This document shows, in pieces, positions 39,528 through 55,751 of a DNA stretch of 64,000 nucleotides; positions within the stretch are counted from its first letter, which is position 1, and every line of letters starts with the position of its first letter. The notes beneath the pieces are model-generated. The model saw only the letters and a list, made by a program, of their open reading frames with translations. It was not told where the DNA came from and did no database searches. Origin of the DNA: Demequina sp. GTDB lineage: Bacteria > Actinomycetota > Actinomycetes > Actinomycetales > Demequinaceae. The position numbers and the translations under genes are program-made. The DNA is taken from positions 1,116,001 to 1,180,000 of the forward strand of contig JANQAD010000001.1 in the NCBI GenBank assembly GCA_024707205.1, given 5' to 3'.

Positions 39528-41953
39528 CTACGGAACCGAGCTCTTCACCTCGCAGGAACTGGCTTTGTCTGTGCCGGTGCCGCCGTAGCAGGTGTCCTTC
39601 CCCGTGCCGCCGGTGATGGTGTCGTTGCCCGCATCGCCGTACAGCTTGTCGTTGCCCGCGTCACCGTAGAGCTTGTCGTTGCCGGAGGCACCCTTGATGG
39701 TGTCGTTTCCGGACCCGCCGCGCAGCACGTTCACGCCCGACGTCCCGTAGATCGTGTCCGCGCCGCTTCCGCCCGTGGCATTCTCGATGGACATCAGGGC
39801 GTCGCTGCCCGCGCCGCCGGTCACCTTTTTCTTGGCGAGGTCGATCTTCACGGCCTTGGTGAACCCCACGTAGGACACGGTGTCCGTGCCCGAGCCGCCG
39901 TTCAGCACGTTCGCGCCGGACGTGCCGACGAGCGTGTCGGGGCCGCTGCCGCCCGTCGCGTTCTCGAAGCCGATCAGCGTGTCCGTGCCACCACCACCGG
40001 TTGCCTTCCCTGTCTTCAGGTTCACCGTCACGGCCTTGGTGACGCCCGCGTACGAGACGGTGTCCACGCCCGCACCAGCTTCCACGCGGTCGTTGCCAAG
40101 GCCGGGGCGAATGGTGTTGTCGCGGGCGTCGCCCAAGATCAGGTCGGCGTACTTGGAGCCGATGATGTTCTGTGGGGGCAGAACCGGGCTGCTGCCGGTG
40201 AGGCCCAGTCCCAGGAGGTCCATGCCCGCCTGGGCGCCGCTGCCGAACGAGGCCCGCATGGAGCCGCCGCTGTCGAGCAGCTCGAACTTCACGCCCTTGT
40301 AGGTGGCGTCCGCGGACTGGGTGTTGAGCCACGAGTAGTCGATCGTGTCCGCGCCGCCGTTGCCGTTGATGTAGTTGGTGCCGCCGAGCCCCCGGAACGT
40401 GTTGGCGCCGGTGGTCCCCTTGAGGGTGTCGTTCCACTGCGAGCCCACCACGCTCTCCACGTTGGTGATGGTGTCCCTGCCCGCGTTGGCCGTGTTCTGC
40501 TGGGTGGTGACGCTGAGGTCCACGAGCACGCCGATGCCGGAGCCGTCGTCCTGACCCTGGGCCGCGTAGCTCACGGTGTCCGTGCCGGCGCCGCCATCCA
40601 CGATGTCGTTCCCGTAGGTGGTGCCGCCCACCCTCCAGCTGGATTGAGGTTCCGAGGCCTCGAGGGTGTCGTTCCCATCGCCGCCAAAGAGCTGGTCGCT
40701 GCCGGCGCCCCCGATGAGCCGGTCGTTGCCGCCGAGCCCGCAGATAATGTCGTTTCCGCCAAGGCCGTCGATGATGTCGTCGCCCGGCGTTCCGAGGATG
40801 ACGTCGTCGCCGGGGGTCGCCACCTCGCCAGCCGCGAGCGACACGGTTACCCCTTGGCCGCCGCACGTGGCGGCGTACAGGCCGGTGAAGGTCTGCACCG
40901 AGCCCCAGATGACGGCCGACGCTCCCGTGGGTTTGAAGCCGATCTTCCAGTAGTACTTCTGGCGGCTTTGATCGCCGAGTAGGCGGCCACGTCCCAGTCG
41001 GTGGCGAACGTGAGCGCGTCGGAGCCCGACGGCAGGGCGCCCGTGGACTGTTGGTACGCGCCGCTGGTGTCCAGACCGGCCGACGTCGTGGCTCGCCTCA
41101 CGTAGTACGTGCCGGCGCTGCCGTTCGTGTACAGATAGGCGAGCGACAGCAGGCCGTACTTGGCGGTGTACGTATCGCCGAACCACTCGAACTGGTCCAC
41201 GGCCGTGGTGGACGGCTGCGGGTAGCCCACGCGGTACGCGTTGGGAGAGTTGGCGCCCGTGTTCGTGGGGGTGGAGCCGTTGCCCACGTTGGACGCGGTG
41301 CCGAACACGTTGATGGGCGCCCACGGCTTGAGCAGGTACGTCCCCGATCCGGATGCCACCTGGATCCACGCCTCGAACTTGGTCATGTTCTGAGGGGTGG
41401 TGGCCTTGAGCGGGATGAGCCACTCCCACTTGTTGCCGCTCACGGCGGACCACAGCGGCGCGTCGACGGTGTTGGAGGCGATGCAGTAGACCCCGGTGGT
41501 GCCCGCGCAATTCTGCTGGACGTAGCTCGCGGCCAGTGGCGTGCCGTTGACCGCTAGCGGGGTCGACGCCGTGATGCTGAGTTCTACGCCGGCGGGGAGC
41601 TTGAAGCCCGGCACCACTCCTTGGCCCCCGCATGGCATCGCGGCGGCGCCAACGGAGATCGAGGCGTAGAACGTGTCGCCCTGAGCGGGCTTGGACGCCG
41701 CCATGTCCACCTCGATGCTCGTGTACGCCATGACCGCGGGGCCGATGTAGGGGCTGCCCCAGATCACACTGGAGCAGTCGATCTCTCGCGTGTTCTGCAT
41801 GGCGCCCGAGTACCACGAGCCGTTGGCGAGCGTGACGGTGGCAGCGTCGGCCGTCGGGGCCTGCACCACGGCGATCGCGCCTCCGAGCATGAGCGCTGCC
41901 GCGATTCCGGCGACAATAGCGCGAATACGAGGCCTGATATCAAGAATGGACAT
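39528..41953 (-). CDS. Secreted RTX-like calcium-repeat protein, frame broken
   Basis: A large exported protein (about 808 residues). A Sec signal (AIVAGIAAALMLGGAIAVVQAPTADA, residues about 11-36) is followed by a beta-rich domain with CGGQGV motifs, then a long run of RTX nonapeptides (GGNDIICGLGGNDRLIGGAGSD, GNDKLYGDAGND) that form calcium-bound beta-rolls, and a Cys-containing end. The N-terminal part and the repeats are in different frames, joined by restoring one base near 40972 (gcgatcaa to gcggatcaa). GGAGGTAG precedes ATG 41953. It is probably a surface or matrix protein; the Sec signal argues against type I secretion. Confidence 0.85.
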
Positions 41954-44821: not shown

Positions 44822-45116
44822 GCAGCTCAGTCCTGGTTCCTCGGCGCTCGGCTCGAGGTTTAGGCAGCTCAGTCCTGTTTCCAAGGCGCAAGCCACATGG
44901 CCTGGGCAAGGTGCGCCCGAGACCTTCCTGGACCGAAACCAGGACTCAGGTGCCTAAACCGAGGCGATGGCGGGCAAACAGCAGGACTGGTGTGCCTAAA
45001 CCAGGGTGCGCGCGGGGGCAAGGTATGCGGGGGCAAGGTATGCGGGGGCAAGGTATGCGTGGTGTGCCTAAACCGGGGCGCGTCGCGCGCTTTGGTATGC
45101 GCAGTGTGCCTAAACC
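44815..45116. repeat. GGTTTAGGCA repeat cluster C (6 copies) with 15-bp tandem repeats
   Basis: Two right-pointing copies (44815, 44857; GGTTTAGGCAGCTCAGTCCTG) face four left-pointing ones ending at 44960, 45002, 45074 and 45116 (GACTCAGGTGCCTAAACC and GGTATGCG-type). Between them, from about 45013, GGGGGCAAGGTATGC is repeated three times in tandem. The stretch between DUF2332 and the MFS gene holds no other feature. Confidence 0.85.
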
Positions 45117-51516: not shown

Positions 51517-51672
51517 GGTGTCGAGCCTAGTGGCTCCGGTCCTGGGACCGGTCCCAGCCGCTTTGGGAGAAATGCCCCAAATATGGGTGGCACCGAGCGC
51601 GTTTGGGCGCGATGATTAGTCCAGGTTGCGCCCTGCATCCCAATACAAGTAGTTGACGATGGTTGCAGTTCA

Positions 51673-51755
51673 GTGATCTCGAGATCCCTCAGTTCGCGAG
51701 ATCACCGCAGGGGCGGCTTGCGTCAGTGCCATCGTCGCCACCGACAGGAGATCAC
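51673..51755 (+). promoter_or_regulatory. Bistable leader hairpin before the peptide array
   Basis: GTGATCTCG (51673-51681) pairs perfectly with CGAGATCAC (51697-51705). The same left arm GTGATCTC can instead pair with GAGATCAC at 51748-51755, which overlaps the AGGAG ribosome site of the first peptide gene. The two folds exclude one another, so the leader could switch translation of the array. The ligand or trigger is unknown. A GCCCGACGCT motif is not present here. Confidence 0.55.
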
Positions 51756-51756
51756 C

Positions 51757-51867
51757 GTGGACAAGTGGACCATCCTCACCAATTCCAAGACCGTTCGCGT
51801 CGCCGCATCGGCGACCACGCTCGTCGCCGTCGCGACGATCGCAGGCGCCGGCTGGAAGTGGAACTAG
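51757..51867 (+). CDS. GWKWN peptide 1 (long form)
   Basis: 36 residues; GTG start with CAGGAG six bases upstream. VDKWTILTNSK, then a hydrophobic stretch VRVAASATTLVAVATIAGAG (residues 13-32), then GWKWN. The stretch could be a membrane segment or signal. The frame extends upstream to 51673, but homology to the other units begins here. Confidence 0.8.
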   Translation: MDKWTILTNSKTVRVAASATTLVAVATIAGAGWKWN

Positions 51868-51949
51868 GCAGCAATCACCTCCGTGGGGGAACCGCCTGCT
51901 CGCTGCGGGCACCAACAACTCAACCTTTGAAAGAAATGGACTAACTCAA

Positions 51950-52060
51950 ATGGACAAGTGGACCGTTATCGCCAGCTCCAAAGTCGTGCGTGTCGCGGCC
52001 TCCGCCACCACCCTCGTCGCCGTCGCGACGATCGCAGGCGCCGGCTGGAAGTGGAACTAG
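51950..52060 (+). CDS. GWKWN peptide 2 (long form)
   Basis: 36 residues: MDKWTVIASSKV, then the same hydrophobic stretch as peptide 1 and GWKWN. The start has AAAGAAATGG upstream. Differences from peptide 1 are confined to residues 6-12. Confidence 0.8.
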   Translation: MDKWTVIASSKVVRVAASATTLVAVATIAGAGWKWN

Positions 52061-52120
52061 GCCTCGGCGCCTACTCCGAACCCCCTCATCAACTCTTCAA
52101 CTGACAAAGGACTGACTCTC

Positions 52121-52189
52121 ATGGACAAGTGGACTCTCAACAACGACAAGCTCTCGAACGTGGCTTCAACTGGCTGGAAGTGGAACTAG
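52121..52189 (+). CDS. GWKWN peptide 3 (short form)
   Basis: 22 residues. MDKWT, middle LNNDKLSNVAST, then GWKWN. The hydrophobic segment of the long form is absent. AAAGGA ribosome site nine bases before the ATG. Confidence 0.8.
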   Translation: MDKWTLNNDKLSNVASTGWKWN

Positions 52190-52247
52190 GCGAACGCCTG
52201 GTCCGAAACCCCTCATCAACTCTTCAACTGACAAAGGACTGACTCTC

Positions 52248-52316
52248 ATGGACAAGTGGACCCTCAACAACGACAAGCTCTCGAACGCGGCTTCAACTGG
52301 CTGGAAGTGGAACTAG
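52248..52316 (+). CDS. GWKWN peptide 4 (short form)
   Basis: 22 residues, as peptide 3 except Val-14 is Ala (LNNDKLSNAAST). Confidence 0.8.
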   Translation: MDKWTLNNDKLSNAASTGWKWN

Positions 52317-52374
52317 GCGAACGCCTGGTCCGAACCCCCTCATCAACTCTTCAACTGACAAAGGACTGACTCTC

Positions 52375-52446
52375 ATGGACAAGTGGACGATCACCTCGGA
52401 CAGCAAGCTCGCCAACGATGCCTCGACCGGCTGGAAGTGGAACTAG
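52375..52446 (+). CDS. GWKWN peptide 5 (short form, 23 aa)
   Basis: 23 residues: MDKWT, middle ITSDSKLANDAST, GWKWN. One residue longer than units 3 and 4; an Asp replaces Val before AST. Confidence 0.8.
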   Translation: MDKWTITSDSKLANDASTGWKWN

Positions 52447-52505
52447 GCCCCGGCGCCTGGACCACACCCCTCATCAACTCTTCAAATCACAAAGGACTAA
52501 CTCTC

Positions 52506-52574
52506 ATGGACAAGTGGACTCTCACCAACGACAAGCTCGCGAACGTTGCTTCGACTGGCTGGAAGTGGAACTAG
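52506..52574 (+). CDS. GWKWN peptide 6 (short form)
   Basis: 22 residues: MDKWT, middle LTNDKLANVAST, GWKWN. Confidence 0.8.
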   Translation: MDKWTLTNDKLANVASTGWKWN

Positions 52575-52633
52575 GCCTCAGCGCCTAGCCCAATCCCCTC
52601 ATCAACTCTTCTGAAGTCAAAGGACCAATTCTC

Positions 52634-52702
52634 ATGGACAAGTGGACTCTCACCAACGACAAGCTCGCGAACGTTGCTTCGACCGGCTGGAAGTGGAACT
52701 AG
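52634..52702 (+). CDS. GWKWN peptide 7 (short form)
   Basis: 22 residues, identical in protein sequence to peptide 6; the genes differ by a silent change (ACT to ACC). Confidence 0.8.
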   Translation: MDKWTLTNDKLANVASTGWKWN

Positions 52703-52761
52703 GCCTCAGCGCCTAGCCCAATCCCCTCATCAACTCTTCTGAACTCAAAGGACTGACTCTC

Positions 52762-52830
52762 ATGGACAAGTGGACTCTCACCAACGACAAGCTCTCGAAC
52801 GTTGCCTCGACTGGCTGGAAGTGGAACTAG
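52762..52830 (+). CDS. GWKWN peptide 8 (short form)
   Basis: 22 residues: MDKWT, middle LTNDKLSNVAST, GWKWN. Confidence 0.8.
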   Translation: MDKWTLTNDKLSNVASTGWKWN

Positions 52831-52888
52831 GCGAACGCCTGGTCCGAACCCCCTCATCAACTCTTCAACTGACAAAGGACTAACTCTC

Positions 52889-52960
52889 ATGGACAAGTGG
52901 ACGATCACCTCCGACAGCAAGCTCGCCAATGTTGCCTCGACCGGCTGGAAGTGGAACTGA
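52889..52960 (+). CDS. GWKWN peptide 9 (short form, 23 aa)
   Basis: 23 residues: MDKWT, middle ITSDSKLANVAST, GWKWN. It is the only unit ending in TGA; all others use TAG. Confidence 0.8.
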   Translation: MDKWTITSDSKLANVASTGWKWN

Positions 52961-53040
52961 GCACGAACCTGCCCGAAGTACCGCGCGGGTGAGCAATCTC
53001 ACGGCGCGCATCTGATCGCGACTACCCAATAGGACCCATC

Positions 53041-53151
53041 ATGGACAAGTGGACCATCCTGATCAGCAGCAGGCTCGTACGGATAACCTCCTCGGCGACG
53101 ACTCTCGTGGTGGCGGCCACGATCGCGGGCGCCGGGTGGAAGTGGAACTAG
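53041..53151 (+). CDS. GWKWN peptide 10 (long form)
   Basis: 36 residues: MDKWTILISSRL, hydrophobic VRITSSATTLVVAATIAGAG, GWKWN. It has diverged at many codons from peptides 1 and 2 yet keeps both ends and the hydrophobic centre. It lies 26 bases before the GGDEF-EAL start. Confidence 0.8.
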   Translation: MDKWTILISSRLVRITSSATTLVVAATIAGAGWKWN

Positions 53152-53177
53152 AACCCTCGACGCCTAGCGGCGGTGCG

Positions 53178-55199
53178 GTGCGGCGAGCACGCTCGTCATC
53201 CGCGCGACTCGACGCTTATGTCGCCGCGGTCATCACTCTCGGCGTAATCGCGCTCGCCTTCATCCTTCTGTCAACCGACTGGGATGAGCTCATCCACGGC
53301 ATCCCGGTATGGCCGACGCTGTTGCTGGCTTTCGCCGCGATCGCGGGTGAGGTGAAGCCGATCGTCCTTCCCCGGGCGGGCAGATCCGACCGCACCCTTT
53401 CGACCTCGGCCCCCTTCGTGCTCGCCCTCGTGGGCGTGGCTGGGTTGACCGTCGGCGTCGTTGTCCAGGTCCTCGCCAGTCTCACGGACGACGCGCTGCA
53501 GCACCGCGCACCCAAGAAGTCACTCTTCAACACCGCCCAGTACACGCTCAGTGTGGCCAGCGCGGGCCTCGTCTACGCGGCGCTGACCGGCTATTCGCCG
53601 CTGTCGGCGCCCATGGCCGTGGAACCCCGCGACATCCTCGCGCTCATGGCGGGCGGTCTAGTCATGTTCGCTGTGAACTGGGTGTTGGTAGCGGGGATCG
53701 TCTCGCGCGTCACTGATCAGCGTCTATTCGCCGTTCTGCGGAGCGACGTGCGTGACTTCTTTGTGAGCAACCTCGTCCTCCTCAGCATCGGCGGAATCGC
53801 GGCACTCATCGCCGCCGAGGGCGCATGGGCTCTGATTCTGCTCGCCGCCCCCGTCATCGCGGCGCACCTGTTCACGCAGTCCGCCGCGCGCCACGCGCAT
53901 GACGCCACCCACGACCAGCTCACGGGTCTTGGCAACAGAGCGCAACTGCACTACGAGATCGTCAAGGGACTCGCGAACGCGCAACGGTCCAAGACCGACG
54001 GCCCCGGCCTCGTCCTACTCGACCTTGACCACTTCAAGGACATCAACGACACGCTCGGCCACCCCTTCGGCGACCTCATCCTGCGCAAGGTCGCCGATGA
54101 GCTCACGGCGGCCGCGCCGGAGAACGCGACCGTCCACCGCCTCGGCGGCGACGAGTTCGCGGTCGTGGTGTTCGGCGACATGCTGGACACGGCAACCGCC
54201 GCGCGCAACCTCCTCGGCGCGCTTGACACTCCCGTCCACATCGAGGGGCTCGAACTGCTCGTGAGGGCGAGCGCGGGCGTCGCCGTCGCCCCACACCACG
54301 GTGACGACTCCGACACCCTCATGAAGAACGTGGACATCGCGCTGTATCACGCGAAGCTCGAGCGCGACCGCATCAGCCTGTACTCCTCGGAGTTCGACAT
54401 CAACACTCTTGAGCGGCTGCAGCTCCTCGCGGATCTCCGCACGGCCATTCACTCCAACGAACTGCACGTGGTCTACCAGCCACAGCTCGATCTCAGCGAC
54501 GGCAAGCTGGTGGGCGTTGAGGCGCTCGTGCGTTGGCGCCACCCGCGGCGCGGCGAGGTCACCGCCGAGGAGTTCATTGCCCTCGCGGAGAGTTCCGGCC
54601 TTGTGGTCCCGCTCACCGCCTACGTCATGAACGCGGCTCTCGCCGAACTCGCCGAGTGGCGCGCGCAGGGCCACGAGCTCCGCATGGCCGTGAACCTCTC
54701 CGCGCGCCTGCTCTCCGACCTCGCCCTCCCCGATCAGGTGCGTGATGCCCTGCTTCGCCACGACGTCCCGGCGAGCTCGTTGGTCCTCGAGGTGACGGAG
54801 ACCGGCATTCTGGCCGACGCCGTGCGCGCCGACACCGTGGTCCACGCTTTGCGCGGGCTTGGCGTGGCAATCGCGATCGATGACTACGGCACCGGCAACG
54901 CATCCCTCAATTACCTCAAGCGACTCGAGATCGACGAGCTCAAGATCGACCGCTCGTTCGTGAGCAATATCGGCACCGAGAACCACGACCTGATCATCGT
55001 CCGCTCGACGATCTCGCTGGCACGTGCCCTCGGCCTCAGGGTGGTCGCCGAAGGCATCGAGGACGAGGCGACCGCGGTCGCTTTGCGCGAACTCGGCTGC
55101 CCCATTGGCCAGGGCTTCCATCTGGGAATCCCCGTTCCAGCGTCGGAAATCTCGCCGTTCTTCAAGGGCGGCAGCCGCGCTGGCGCGCAACCCGCCTAG
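53178..55199 (+). CDS. Membrane GGDEF-EAL cyclic-di-GMP enzyme
   Basis: A 673-residue protein with an N-terminal membrane sensor of five to six helices (residues about 12-240; a MASE-like domain with LFNTAQYTLSVASAG), a diguanylate cyclase domain and a phosphodiesterase domain. GGDEF (323-327, RLGGDEFAVV) is intact; the EAL domain has EAL (448-450), NLSA, EVTET, IDDYGTG, LKIDRSF and AEGIED, so both activities are possible. GTG 53178 is chosen because it opens the membrane domain and leaves peptide 10 free; the frame is open further upstream. The N-terminal domain is the likely receiver of a signal, and the peptide array just before it is the obvious candidate source. Confidence 0.92.
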   Translation: MRRARSSSARLDAYVAAVITLGVIALAFILLSTDWDELIHGIPVWPTLLLAFAAIAGEVKPIVLPRAGRSDRTLSTSAPFVLALVGVAGLTVGVVVQVLASLTDDALQHRAPKKSLFNTAQYTLSVASAGLVYAALTGYSPLSAPMAVEPRDILALMAGGLVMFAVNWVLVAGIVSRVTDQRLFAVLRSDVRDFFVSNLVLLSIGGIAALIAAEGAWALILLAAPVIAAHLFTQSAARHAHDATHDQLTGLGNRAQLHYEIVKGLANAQRSKTDGPGLVLLDLDHFKDINDTLGHPFGDLILRKVADELTAAAPENATVHRLGGDEFAVVVFGDMLDTATAARNLLGALDTPVHIEGLELLVRASAGVAVAPHHGDDSDTLMKNVDIALYHAKLERDRISLYSSEFDINTLERLQLLADLRTAIHSNELHVVYQPQLDLSDGKLVGVEALVRWRHPRRGEVTAEEFIALAESSGLVVPLTAYVMNAALAELAEWRAQGHELRMAVNLSARLLSDLALPDQVRDALLRHDVPASSLVLEVTETGILADAVRADTVVHALRGLGVAIAIDDYGTGNASLNYLKRLEIDELKIDRSFVSNIGTENHDLIIVRSTISLARALGLRVVAEGIEDEATAVALRELGCPIGQGFHLGIPVPASEISPFFKGGSRAGAQPA

Positions 55200-55202
55200 C
55201 CG

Positions 55203-55751
55203 ATGCTTGTCCTCGCCGCCTGCGTGCTCGCGCTCGCGTCGCCTCTCGTCGCGGGGCGCTGGCCGGCCGGCCTGCTGCTGAACAAGTGGAAGTGGCCACT
55301 GCTGATCTGGGCCACGCTGATCTTCCAGACCGTGGTGCTCATGGTGGACATGCCCCACAACCTGGCGGCAGGACTGCACGTGGCCTCGTATGCGGCCGCG
55401 ATCGGCTTCCTGTGGCTCAACCGCCACTTCCCAGGCGTCTACTTCGTCGGCGCGGGAGCACTCTCGAACGGCGTCGCCATCGCGCTGAACGGCGGCACCC
55501 TGCCTGCCTCCGCGGATGCCGTGGCGCGGGCGGGACTCGATGAGACGGGCGGCTTCAACAACACCGCCGTGCTTGAGGACCCCAAGCTGCCATGGCTCGG
55601 GGACGTCTTCGCATGGCCCGCGCCCTTGCCGCTTGCCAACACCTTCAGCGTTGGCGATGTGCTCATCGTGATTGGCGCGTTCGTGGCGGCGTGGAGCGGC
55701 GCGCGTCGTATCGGCCAACCCGTGGAGGACGCGCAACCAGTGCCGGAGTGA
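55203..55751 (+). CDS. DUF5317 membrane protein
   Basis: A 182-residue protein with five to six membrane helices, of the actinobacterial DUF5317 family (function unknown). It starts MLVLAACVLALASPLVAGRWPAGLL, includes NGVAIALNGGTLPASADAV and ends with a short charged tail. It begins three bases after the GGDEF-EAL stop, so they are one operon. The loop LLNKWKWPLL contains KWKW, close to the WKWN end of the array peptides; whether this is meaningful is open. Confidence 0.85.
   Translation: MLVLAACVLALASPLVAGRWPAGLLLNKWKWPLLIWATLIFQTVVLMVDMPHNLAAGLHVASYAAAIGFLWLNRHFPGVYFVGAGALSNGVAIALNGGTLPASADAVARAGLDETGGFNNTAVLEDPKLPWLGDVFAWPAPLPLANTFSVGDVLIVIGAFVAAWSGARRIGQPVEDAQPVPE

Follow-up and report, generated by a model that had tools for sequence, protein, structure and literature searches.

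GxK[W/F] micropeptides encoded in front of a c-di-GMP membrane sensor enzyme in Actinomycetota, with a ten-gene array in Demequina

The window analyzed here, a stretch of 64,000 nucleotides of the contig JANQAD010000001.1 from Demequina sp., contains at positions 51757–53151 an array of ten small open reading frames (ORFs) that is the extreme, amplified case of a micropeptide family. The family consists of very short peptides from scattered members of Actinomycetota, encoded ahead of a membrane-bound sensor enzyme of cyclic diguanylate (c-di-GMP) signaling that has GGDEF and EAL domains. The usual member is 28–37 amino acids (aa) long, with one probable membrane span, and the part that is constant across the long and short forms is the C-terminal G-x-K-[W/F] followed by 0–4 residues. 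These micropeptides probably act on or with the sensor; the more specific reading, that they would be produced by coupled translation and serve the sensor as a small membrane partner or a ligand, appears to us about evenly balanced.

All ten units of the array are on the forward strand. Units 1 (51757..51867), 2 (51950..52060) and 10 (53041..53151) encode 36-aa peptides of the long form, and the seven units between them encode core-deleted peptides of 22 aa (units 3, 52121..52189; 4, 52248..52316; 6, 52506..52574; 7, 52634..52702; 8, 52762..52830) or 23 aa (units 5, 52375..52446, and 9, 52889..52960). The original prediction for this region listed the same ORFs, lengths and shared ends, and this description holds: the (M/V)DKWT start and the GWKWN end are present in all ten units, including unit 1 with its GTG start codon (read as Met), unit 9, which ends with TGA in place of the TAG found in the other nine, and unit 10, which adjoins the GGDEF-EAL gene. 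The assertion that each unit has its own ribosome site stands for eight units, with duplex energies of −5.3 to −7.4, but not for units 2 (−3.0) and 10 (−3.9), the sites of which are weak. The peptides are not spurious pieces of one long gene, given that all three frames are used by the units, each with its own start and stop. Tandem Repeats Finder detects a 128-base repeat in 7.1 copies at 52043–52958; the copy number of the array is that of a single assembly. Units 3–9 resemble the long form without its hydrophobic core, their highest 16-residue hydropathy being −0.74 to −0.04.

The seven short units are under purifying selection. Over their 21 pairs, aligned after one codon was dropped from units 5 and 9, the proportion of synonymous differences (pS) is 0.297 and that of nonsynonymous differences (pN) 0.058; none of 300 star-tree simulations without selection gives a pN/pS as low as the observed 0.20. 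The differences are thus mainly silent, as had been noticed from the sequence, and the view that the peptides themselves are conserved is borne out. The pN/pS of the three long units of the window is 0.26. These values bear on the idea that the family is functional and the array is not, units 3–9 being decaying or selfish tandem copies kept alike by recombination. Such an origin would fit the presence of short units of this type in one of 44 Demequina genomes, the single ORF ending in G.K[WF] that is found within 900 bases upstream of the GGDEF-EAL gene in each of 30 Demequina relatives, and the small differences among the 128-base units, but it does not account for the low pN/pS, for starts and ends that are intact in all seven units, or for the independent recurrence of span-less partners in other families, so that we regard it as quite improbable. 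The same count of exactly one such ORF per locus rules out a hidden array in the 30 relatives.

The family is absent from the libraries searched and appears to be undescribed, in agreement with the original prediction. The peptides have no match in Pfam or NCBIfam, the 13 protein matches retrieved are named nothing beyond ‘hypothetical protein’ in their sources, and a literature search on the peptide turned up nothing. A known RNA element in the array region is likewise rejected because, for the window region and for 10 relatives, Rfam yields sub-threshold matches only. Beyond what had been predicted, the usual form of the family is a single long peptide that probably spans the membrane, and the short units of the array are versions devoid of the hydrophobic core. 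In Demequina, the usual state is one 36-aa peptide of the form MxKW...core...GAGxKWx encoded directly before the GGDEF-EAL gene, which is followed by a gene for a DUF5317 protein. In 31 aligned Demequina peptides, including unit 10 of the window, M1, K3, W4, T21, A31, G32, K34 and W35 are invariant; R occupies position 14 in 27 of the 31, position 33 is W (11 of 31), F, Y, L or V, and the position that follows KW is variable, with N in eight. A cationic head is followed by an uncharged hydrophobic stretch and then by GAGxKWx. When the long peptides of all sources are pooled (67 distinct sequences), none has a charged residue among the 14 that precede GxKW, the mean hydropathy is 1.84 over 16 residues, and Lys and Arg are more frequent on the N side in 62. 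Judged by hydropathy, the long form probably has one membrane span, and the short forms do not qualify for one.

The part of the peptide that is conserved beyond the genus is G-x-K-[W/F]. Its variants include GAAN-KWW (L195; locus designations are those of our collection), PGKW (L203/L205) and PKKF (L128/L129). Given that Trp can be replaced by Phe (AAG TTC), that the Gly codons vary and that the residue after KW varies, this end is an amino-acid signature. No ORF of 6–64 aa that ends in G.K[WF] plus 0–4 residues and has a ribosome-site energy of −5 or better occurs in 156,378 bases of control sequence, taken from the opposite strand and from the coding part further downstream in the loci of 29 relatives, a cut in energy that units 2 and 10 themselves miss; in a both-strand scan of the loci L128 to L220, every match precedes an operon of the type described here. 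The span-less tiny forms are provisionally counted as relatives by their C-terminal motif, ribosome site and position, not by whole-length similarity. The original prediction had also pointed to WxN and WxW motifs of cyclophane-type ribosomally synthesized and post-translationally modified peptides (RiPPs). In relatives, the position that follows KW varies, which leaves WxN outside the conserved part, and the WxN/WxW core is not conserved either. A modified natural product of this kind, or a bacteriocin-like or type I toxin-like peptide, would explain short Trp-rich peptides in tandem and the hydrophobic span of the long form; nevertheless, the variable residue after KW and a presence that tracks one signaling module make it highly improbable. 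Moreover, as had been noted from the sequence, no radical S-adenosylmethionine or peptidase family is matched by any of the 13 neighboring proteins scanned against Pfam (a selection of the ORFs at 42.7–63.2 kb, and the operon).

Analysis of the genomic contexts reveals a tight association of the peptide with the sensor-DUF5317 pair, although the genomes compared are not independent of each other. In all 30 Demequina loci fetched because of a peptide match (L039–L068), an ORF of 36 or 37 aa lies directly before the GGDEF-EAL gene, and the DUF5317 gene follows in 29, the contig of L039 ending at that point. Among 44 Demequina genomes, 38 encode DUF5317 and the same 38 encode the peptide; both are missing from the other six (G005, G008, G018, G021, G036 and G065). 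When loci were selected through the sensor domain instead of the peptide, the picture was the same, with a peptide in all eight Demequina loci examined and in all 11 loci examined of the 13 from Cellulomonas/Actinotalea (all except L100 and L108). Homologous small ORFs thus stand beside the GGDEF-EAL/DUF5317 loci of related genomes, contrary to the outcome that the original prediction named as its refutation. A class-wide search with the sensor domain gives matches in 67 of 296 genomes, the window's own included, of which the best 29 loci besides the window were read. A peptide is present in 12 of 12 of these loci that adjoin DUF5317 (L192–L195, L197–L201, L203, L205 and L210, the DUF5317 gene of the last being divergent) and in none of the 16 that do not, 11 of which come from one family. 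In L196, where the contig ends, there are two tiny ORFs of 11 and 9 aa. Two peptides are encoded in ten (L192–L201) of the 13 peptide-bearing loci, namely two long ones in L194 and L198–L201 and, in L192, L193, L195 and L197, a long one accompanied by one that is short or less hydrophobic, so that tandem pairs recur outside the genus, some with span-less partners of 9–27 aa.

Further family members come from weaker matches. An order-wide search scored at most 19 candidates per genome, so that a missing match outside the genus does not show that the family is absent there; among the weak matches of this search, L128–L133 belong to the family. L128 and L129 encode peptides of 36 and 37 aa that end in GAPKKFG(G), L130 and L131 encode a 30-aa peptide ending in GAGHKWW before DUF5317, and in L132 and L133 two peptide genes follow each other, every later cistron beginning within the Lys-Trp codons of the one before it. 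None of the weak matches L134–L139 ends in GxKW, and L140 gave no match in the both-strand scan. In a search of the phylum, nine of 395 other genomes reach an E-value of 0.001. Five of these loci (L221, L224, L226, L227 and L229) contain ORFs of 29–32 aa that end in GAG[RKT]KW plus 0–2 residues and have ribosome-site energies of −16.7 to −18.0; the sensor-type GE..P motif lies downstream in L224, L226 and L227, the last of which also has GGDEF and EAL. A GxKW ORF was not found in the other four matches (L222/L231, L223, L225 and L228). Among 20 DUF5317 regions from other families, all four that have a same-strand GGDEF-EAL gene (recognized by motif) carry the peptide. Given that the peptide is present when GGDEF-EAL adjoins and absent from 15 of these 20 regions, the strict link is to the sensor-DUF5317 pair and not to DUF5317 alone. 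No peptide was found in 30 DUF5317 loci taken with 1.5-kb flanks, which are too short to reach past the GGDEF-EAL gene.

The enzyme in the window is a GGDEF-EAL membrane protein of 685 aa (53142..55199, forward strand), with Pfam E-values of 1.6e-36 for GGDEF and 4.8e-70 for EAL. Its N-terminal domain is predicted to adopt the fold of the S components of energy-coupling factor (ECF) transporters, and the model matches such components, the best structural match being the transition-metal S component 4m5b/4m58. In Pfam, this domain gives a sub-threshold match to MASE9 (PF20972; 15.5 bits against a gathering score of 24.3) and no match to 5TMR. Additional GGDEF-EAL copies are present beside the cassette in three relatives (L055, 5073–7055 and 7236–9182; L058, 7200–9176 and 12412–14382; L059, 6717–8735), where they are not accompanied by a peptide of the searched pattern. 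The DUF5317 membrane protein of the window (182 aa; 55203..55751, forward strand) matches PF17248 with an E-value of 6.6e-28 and a score of 98.1 bits, above the gathering score of 25. Its model has no match among 20 PDB chains compared, too few to prove absence, and a literature search on DUF5317 turned up no paper. Many Demequina DUF5317 proteins (L040, L045 and others) contain [KR]W[KR]WP behind the first helix, in the window as NKWKWP (within 55203–55300), an echo of the WKW of the peptide.

Another feature that had not been predicted is that the GGDEF-EAL gene starts at a GTG nested in the Lys-Trp codons of the last unit. Such an in-frame GTG is found in 29 of 31 Demequina loci, in nine of the 11 Cellulomonas/Actinotalea loci (not in L106 and L109) and in seven of eight further Demequina loci (not in L114). 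In L052 and L063, a one-base difference after the peptide stop breaks the frame with the nested GTG, and for these two a sequencing error and a real difference are indistinguishable. The nested GTG lacks a ribosome site of its own, its median duplex energy being −4.2 kcal/mol compared with −5.7 for shuffled upstream sequence and −8.4 for the peptide start. About 13 bases after the peptide stop, within the first codons of the GGDEF-EAL gene, a hairpin begins; for 15 of its 16 consensus pairs, at least one sequence shows changes on both sides. Over 72 bases, the fold energy ranges from −29 to −58 in relatives; it is −28.4 in the window, where the hairpin (53161..53205, forward strand) is weaker and split into two stems. 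Alignment gaps within this stretch are multiples of three, with L052 and L063 as the exceptions. The sensor residues that it encodes (residues 1–18) are disordered in the model, which suggests that selection here may act on the RNA.

These features are compatible with a leader that acts only in cis, such that the peptide or its translation would control translation of the GGDEF-EAL gene by stalling or by termination-reinitiation and the product would have no task of its own. The nested GTG without a ribosome site, the covarying hairpin right after the stop and the tiny 9- and 11-aa ORFs of L196 all fit this explanation, and unit 10 and most relatives, although not units 1–9, lie directly before and are coupled to the cistron to be controlled. 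However, operons without nesting of the following start (L192, L203, L210 and L128–L130) retain the GxK[W/F] end; Phe, the codons of which cannot give GTG, replaces Trp in L128, L129, the second peptide of L193 and L197; nine of the ten copies in the window are not next to GGDEF-EAL; and in most families the distance between the hydrophobic core and GAGxKW is maintained. The notion that Lys-Trp is explained only by the nested GTG is rejected for the first two of these reasons. A role in cis is likely for the copy that adjoins GGDEF-EAL, but as the sole function it is unlikely because it does not explain the Phe ends, the non-nested operons and the nine remote copies.

The RNA upstream of the array is also structured. 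The 5' leader before unit 1 (51617..51756, forward strand) contains a 7-bp hairpin, P1, in which all seven pairs have changes on both sides in an alignment with 29 relatives (all but L068), and a long stem, P2, with arms at 51655–51662 and 51729–51736 that is present in the predicted fold of the window. This long-range pairing occurs in 27 of 31 leaders compared with 40% of shuffles, and the fold z-scores are modest (mean −1.2; below −2 in seven of 31). The structured leader of the window and 30 relatives has no Rfam match and is a possible regulatory RNA. In L039, L046, L049, L054 and L066, a membrane-protein-like ORF lies about 200–800 bases upstream of the peptide, where the window has the array.

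The mechanism that we favor is that of a partner or ligand acting in trans. The peptide would be the first cistron of an operon that encodes the sensor enzyme (a domain of predicted S-component fold, GGDEF and EAL) and, as a rule, DUF5317, and would act in the membrane as a small subunit or tethered ligand, its helix and Gly-x-Lys-Trp tail docking on the sensor and/or DUF5317 and setting the activity of the enzyme. In Demequina, ribosomes that finish the peptide would re-initiate at the nested GTG, perhaps helped by the hairpin just ahead, so that peptide and enzyme are made together. In the genome of the window, the gene would have been duplicated, with seven copies losing the hydrophobic core and keeping both ends, and the core-less copies would be soluble and serve to increase the amount of tail or to compete with the membrane form. 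A partner of this type would account for the genetic linkage, the conserved span and tail, the selection on the peptide and the usefulness of copies located far upstream. Several observations weigh against it. The best E-value that Foldseek itself assigns to the sensor fold is 0.062; an Asp pair in the sensor (Asp116/Asp117) is confounded by phylogeny, as 11 of 16 peptide-less sensors come from one family; L130 and L131 have the peptide and DUF5317 without GGDEF between them; among the 20 DUF5317 regions from other families, five carry the peptide and 15 do not; the nested in-frame start is missing from L052, L063 and L114; and the pN/pS of the long form across the genus (30 of the 31 peptides, without that of L056) is as high as 0.50 on saturated, uncorrected distances. 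The seven short units and some of the second peptides elsewhere have no span, so that a span is not needed in every copy.

The span-less forms bear as well on the possibility of an exported or released signal, in which a C-terminal GxK[W/F] piece would be sensed by the S-component-fold receptor of neighboring cells and the short forms would be direct precursors. Such a signal fits the 9–17-aa forms best: all that the span-less forms of 9–27 aa retain is the GxK[W/F] end, species differ, in the manner of signals, in the residue that follows KW and in that inside G-x-K, and S components bind small ligands. On the other hand, no exporter or protease was found among the 13 neighbors scanned, the positive residues on the N side fit a retained N-in anchor as well, and cleavage of the long form is hypothetical. 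This explanation seems to us rather doubtful.

Several known systems offer parallels. MgrB, SafA and KdpF are small single-span regulators of membrane sensors or small subunits that overlap the next gene. The GxK[W/F] peptides resemble them in size (about 30–65 aa), in the one span that hydropathy indicates for the long forms, in the genetic linkage to one membrane partner and in a KdpF-like gene overlap, but share no Pfam or NCBIfam family with them, end in G-x-K-[W/F], occur in tandem and in span-less versions, and have a GGDEF-EAL/DUF5317 operon as the partner. The ECF metal transporters NikM-NikN and CbiM-CbiN have a small extra membrane subunit, and the best structural match of the sensor, 4m5b/4m58, is presumably NikM, which works with such a subunit; the GxK[W/F] peptide is shorter, with one span, and its partner is an enzyme. 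SHP and ComS, small hydrophobic pheromone precursors, are similar in being tiny ORFs beside a presumed receptor with a C-terminal conserved part, although the presumed receptor here is a membrane c-di-GMP enzyme. The erm leaders and TnaC are leader peptides, and the MS2 lysis gene is a case of backward re-initiation. The resemblance lies in a short ORF, fixed in its last residues, that precedes a regulated cistron, with an overlapping start and structured RNA behind, but the end of the GxK[W/F] peptide persists without overlap and nine of the ten copies in the window are remote from GGDEF-EAL. Receptors of S-component fold joined to GGDEF/EAL, of the 5TMR/LytS type, have been described (PMC11109136), and the sensor here, with its domain of predicted S-component fold fused to GGDEF-EAL, is comparable; term counts over passages of that source give no mention of a small peptide partner, and the sensor domain matches MASE9, below threshold, and not 5TMR.

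For many c-di-GMP enzymes, no input is known, and a peptide encoded before, and often overlapping, one sensor family is a directly testable partner for that family. DUF5317 gains a functional link, and a micropeptide family is revealed that is recognizable mainly by its last residues and its neighbors. The natural amplification to ten copies, some of them core-deleted, dissociates what the tail does from what the membrane span does. A bolder and distinctly tentative proposal is that GxK[W/F] micropeptides are dedicated ligands of S-component-fold c-di-GMP receptors that work with DUF5317, together forming an undescribed signaling module of Actinomycetota. If so, the ligand set would comprise membrane-tethered and soluble versions of 9–37 aa from one to ten genes per operon, and a binding domain of the vitamin-transporter type would have become a peptide-controlled c-di-GMP switch, with the dose tuned by tandem gene amplification.

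Two other repeats were observed in the window. On the minus strand, 27-base tandem repeats at 39577–40784 lie within an ORF (39528–41816), the translation of which contains, by eye, GGxGND-type nonapeptides as in RTX calcium-binding proteins. A perfect 15-base repeat in 3.2 copies is located at 45012–45059, between a DUF2332 gene and a gene of the major facilitator superfamily (MFS).
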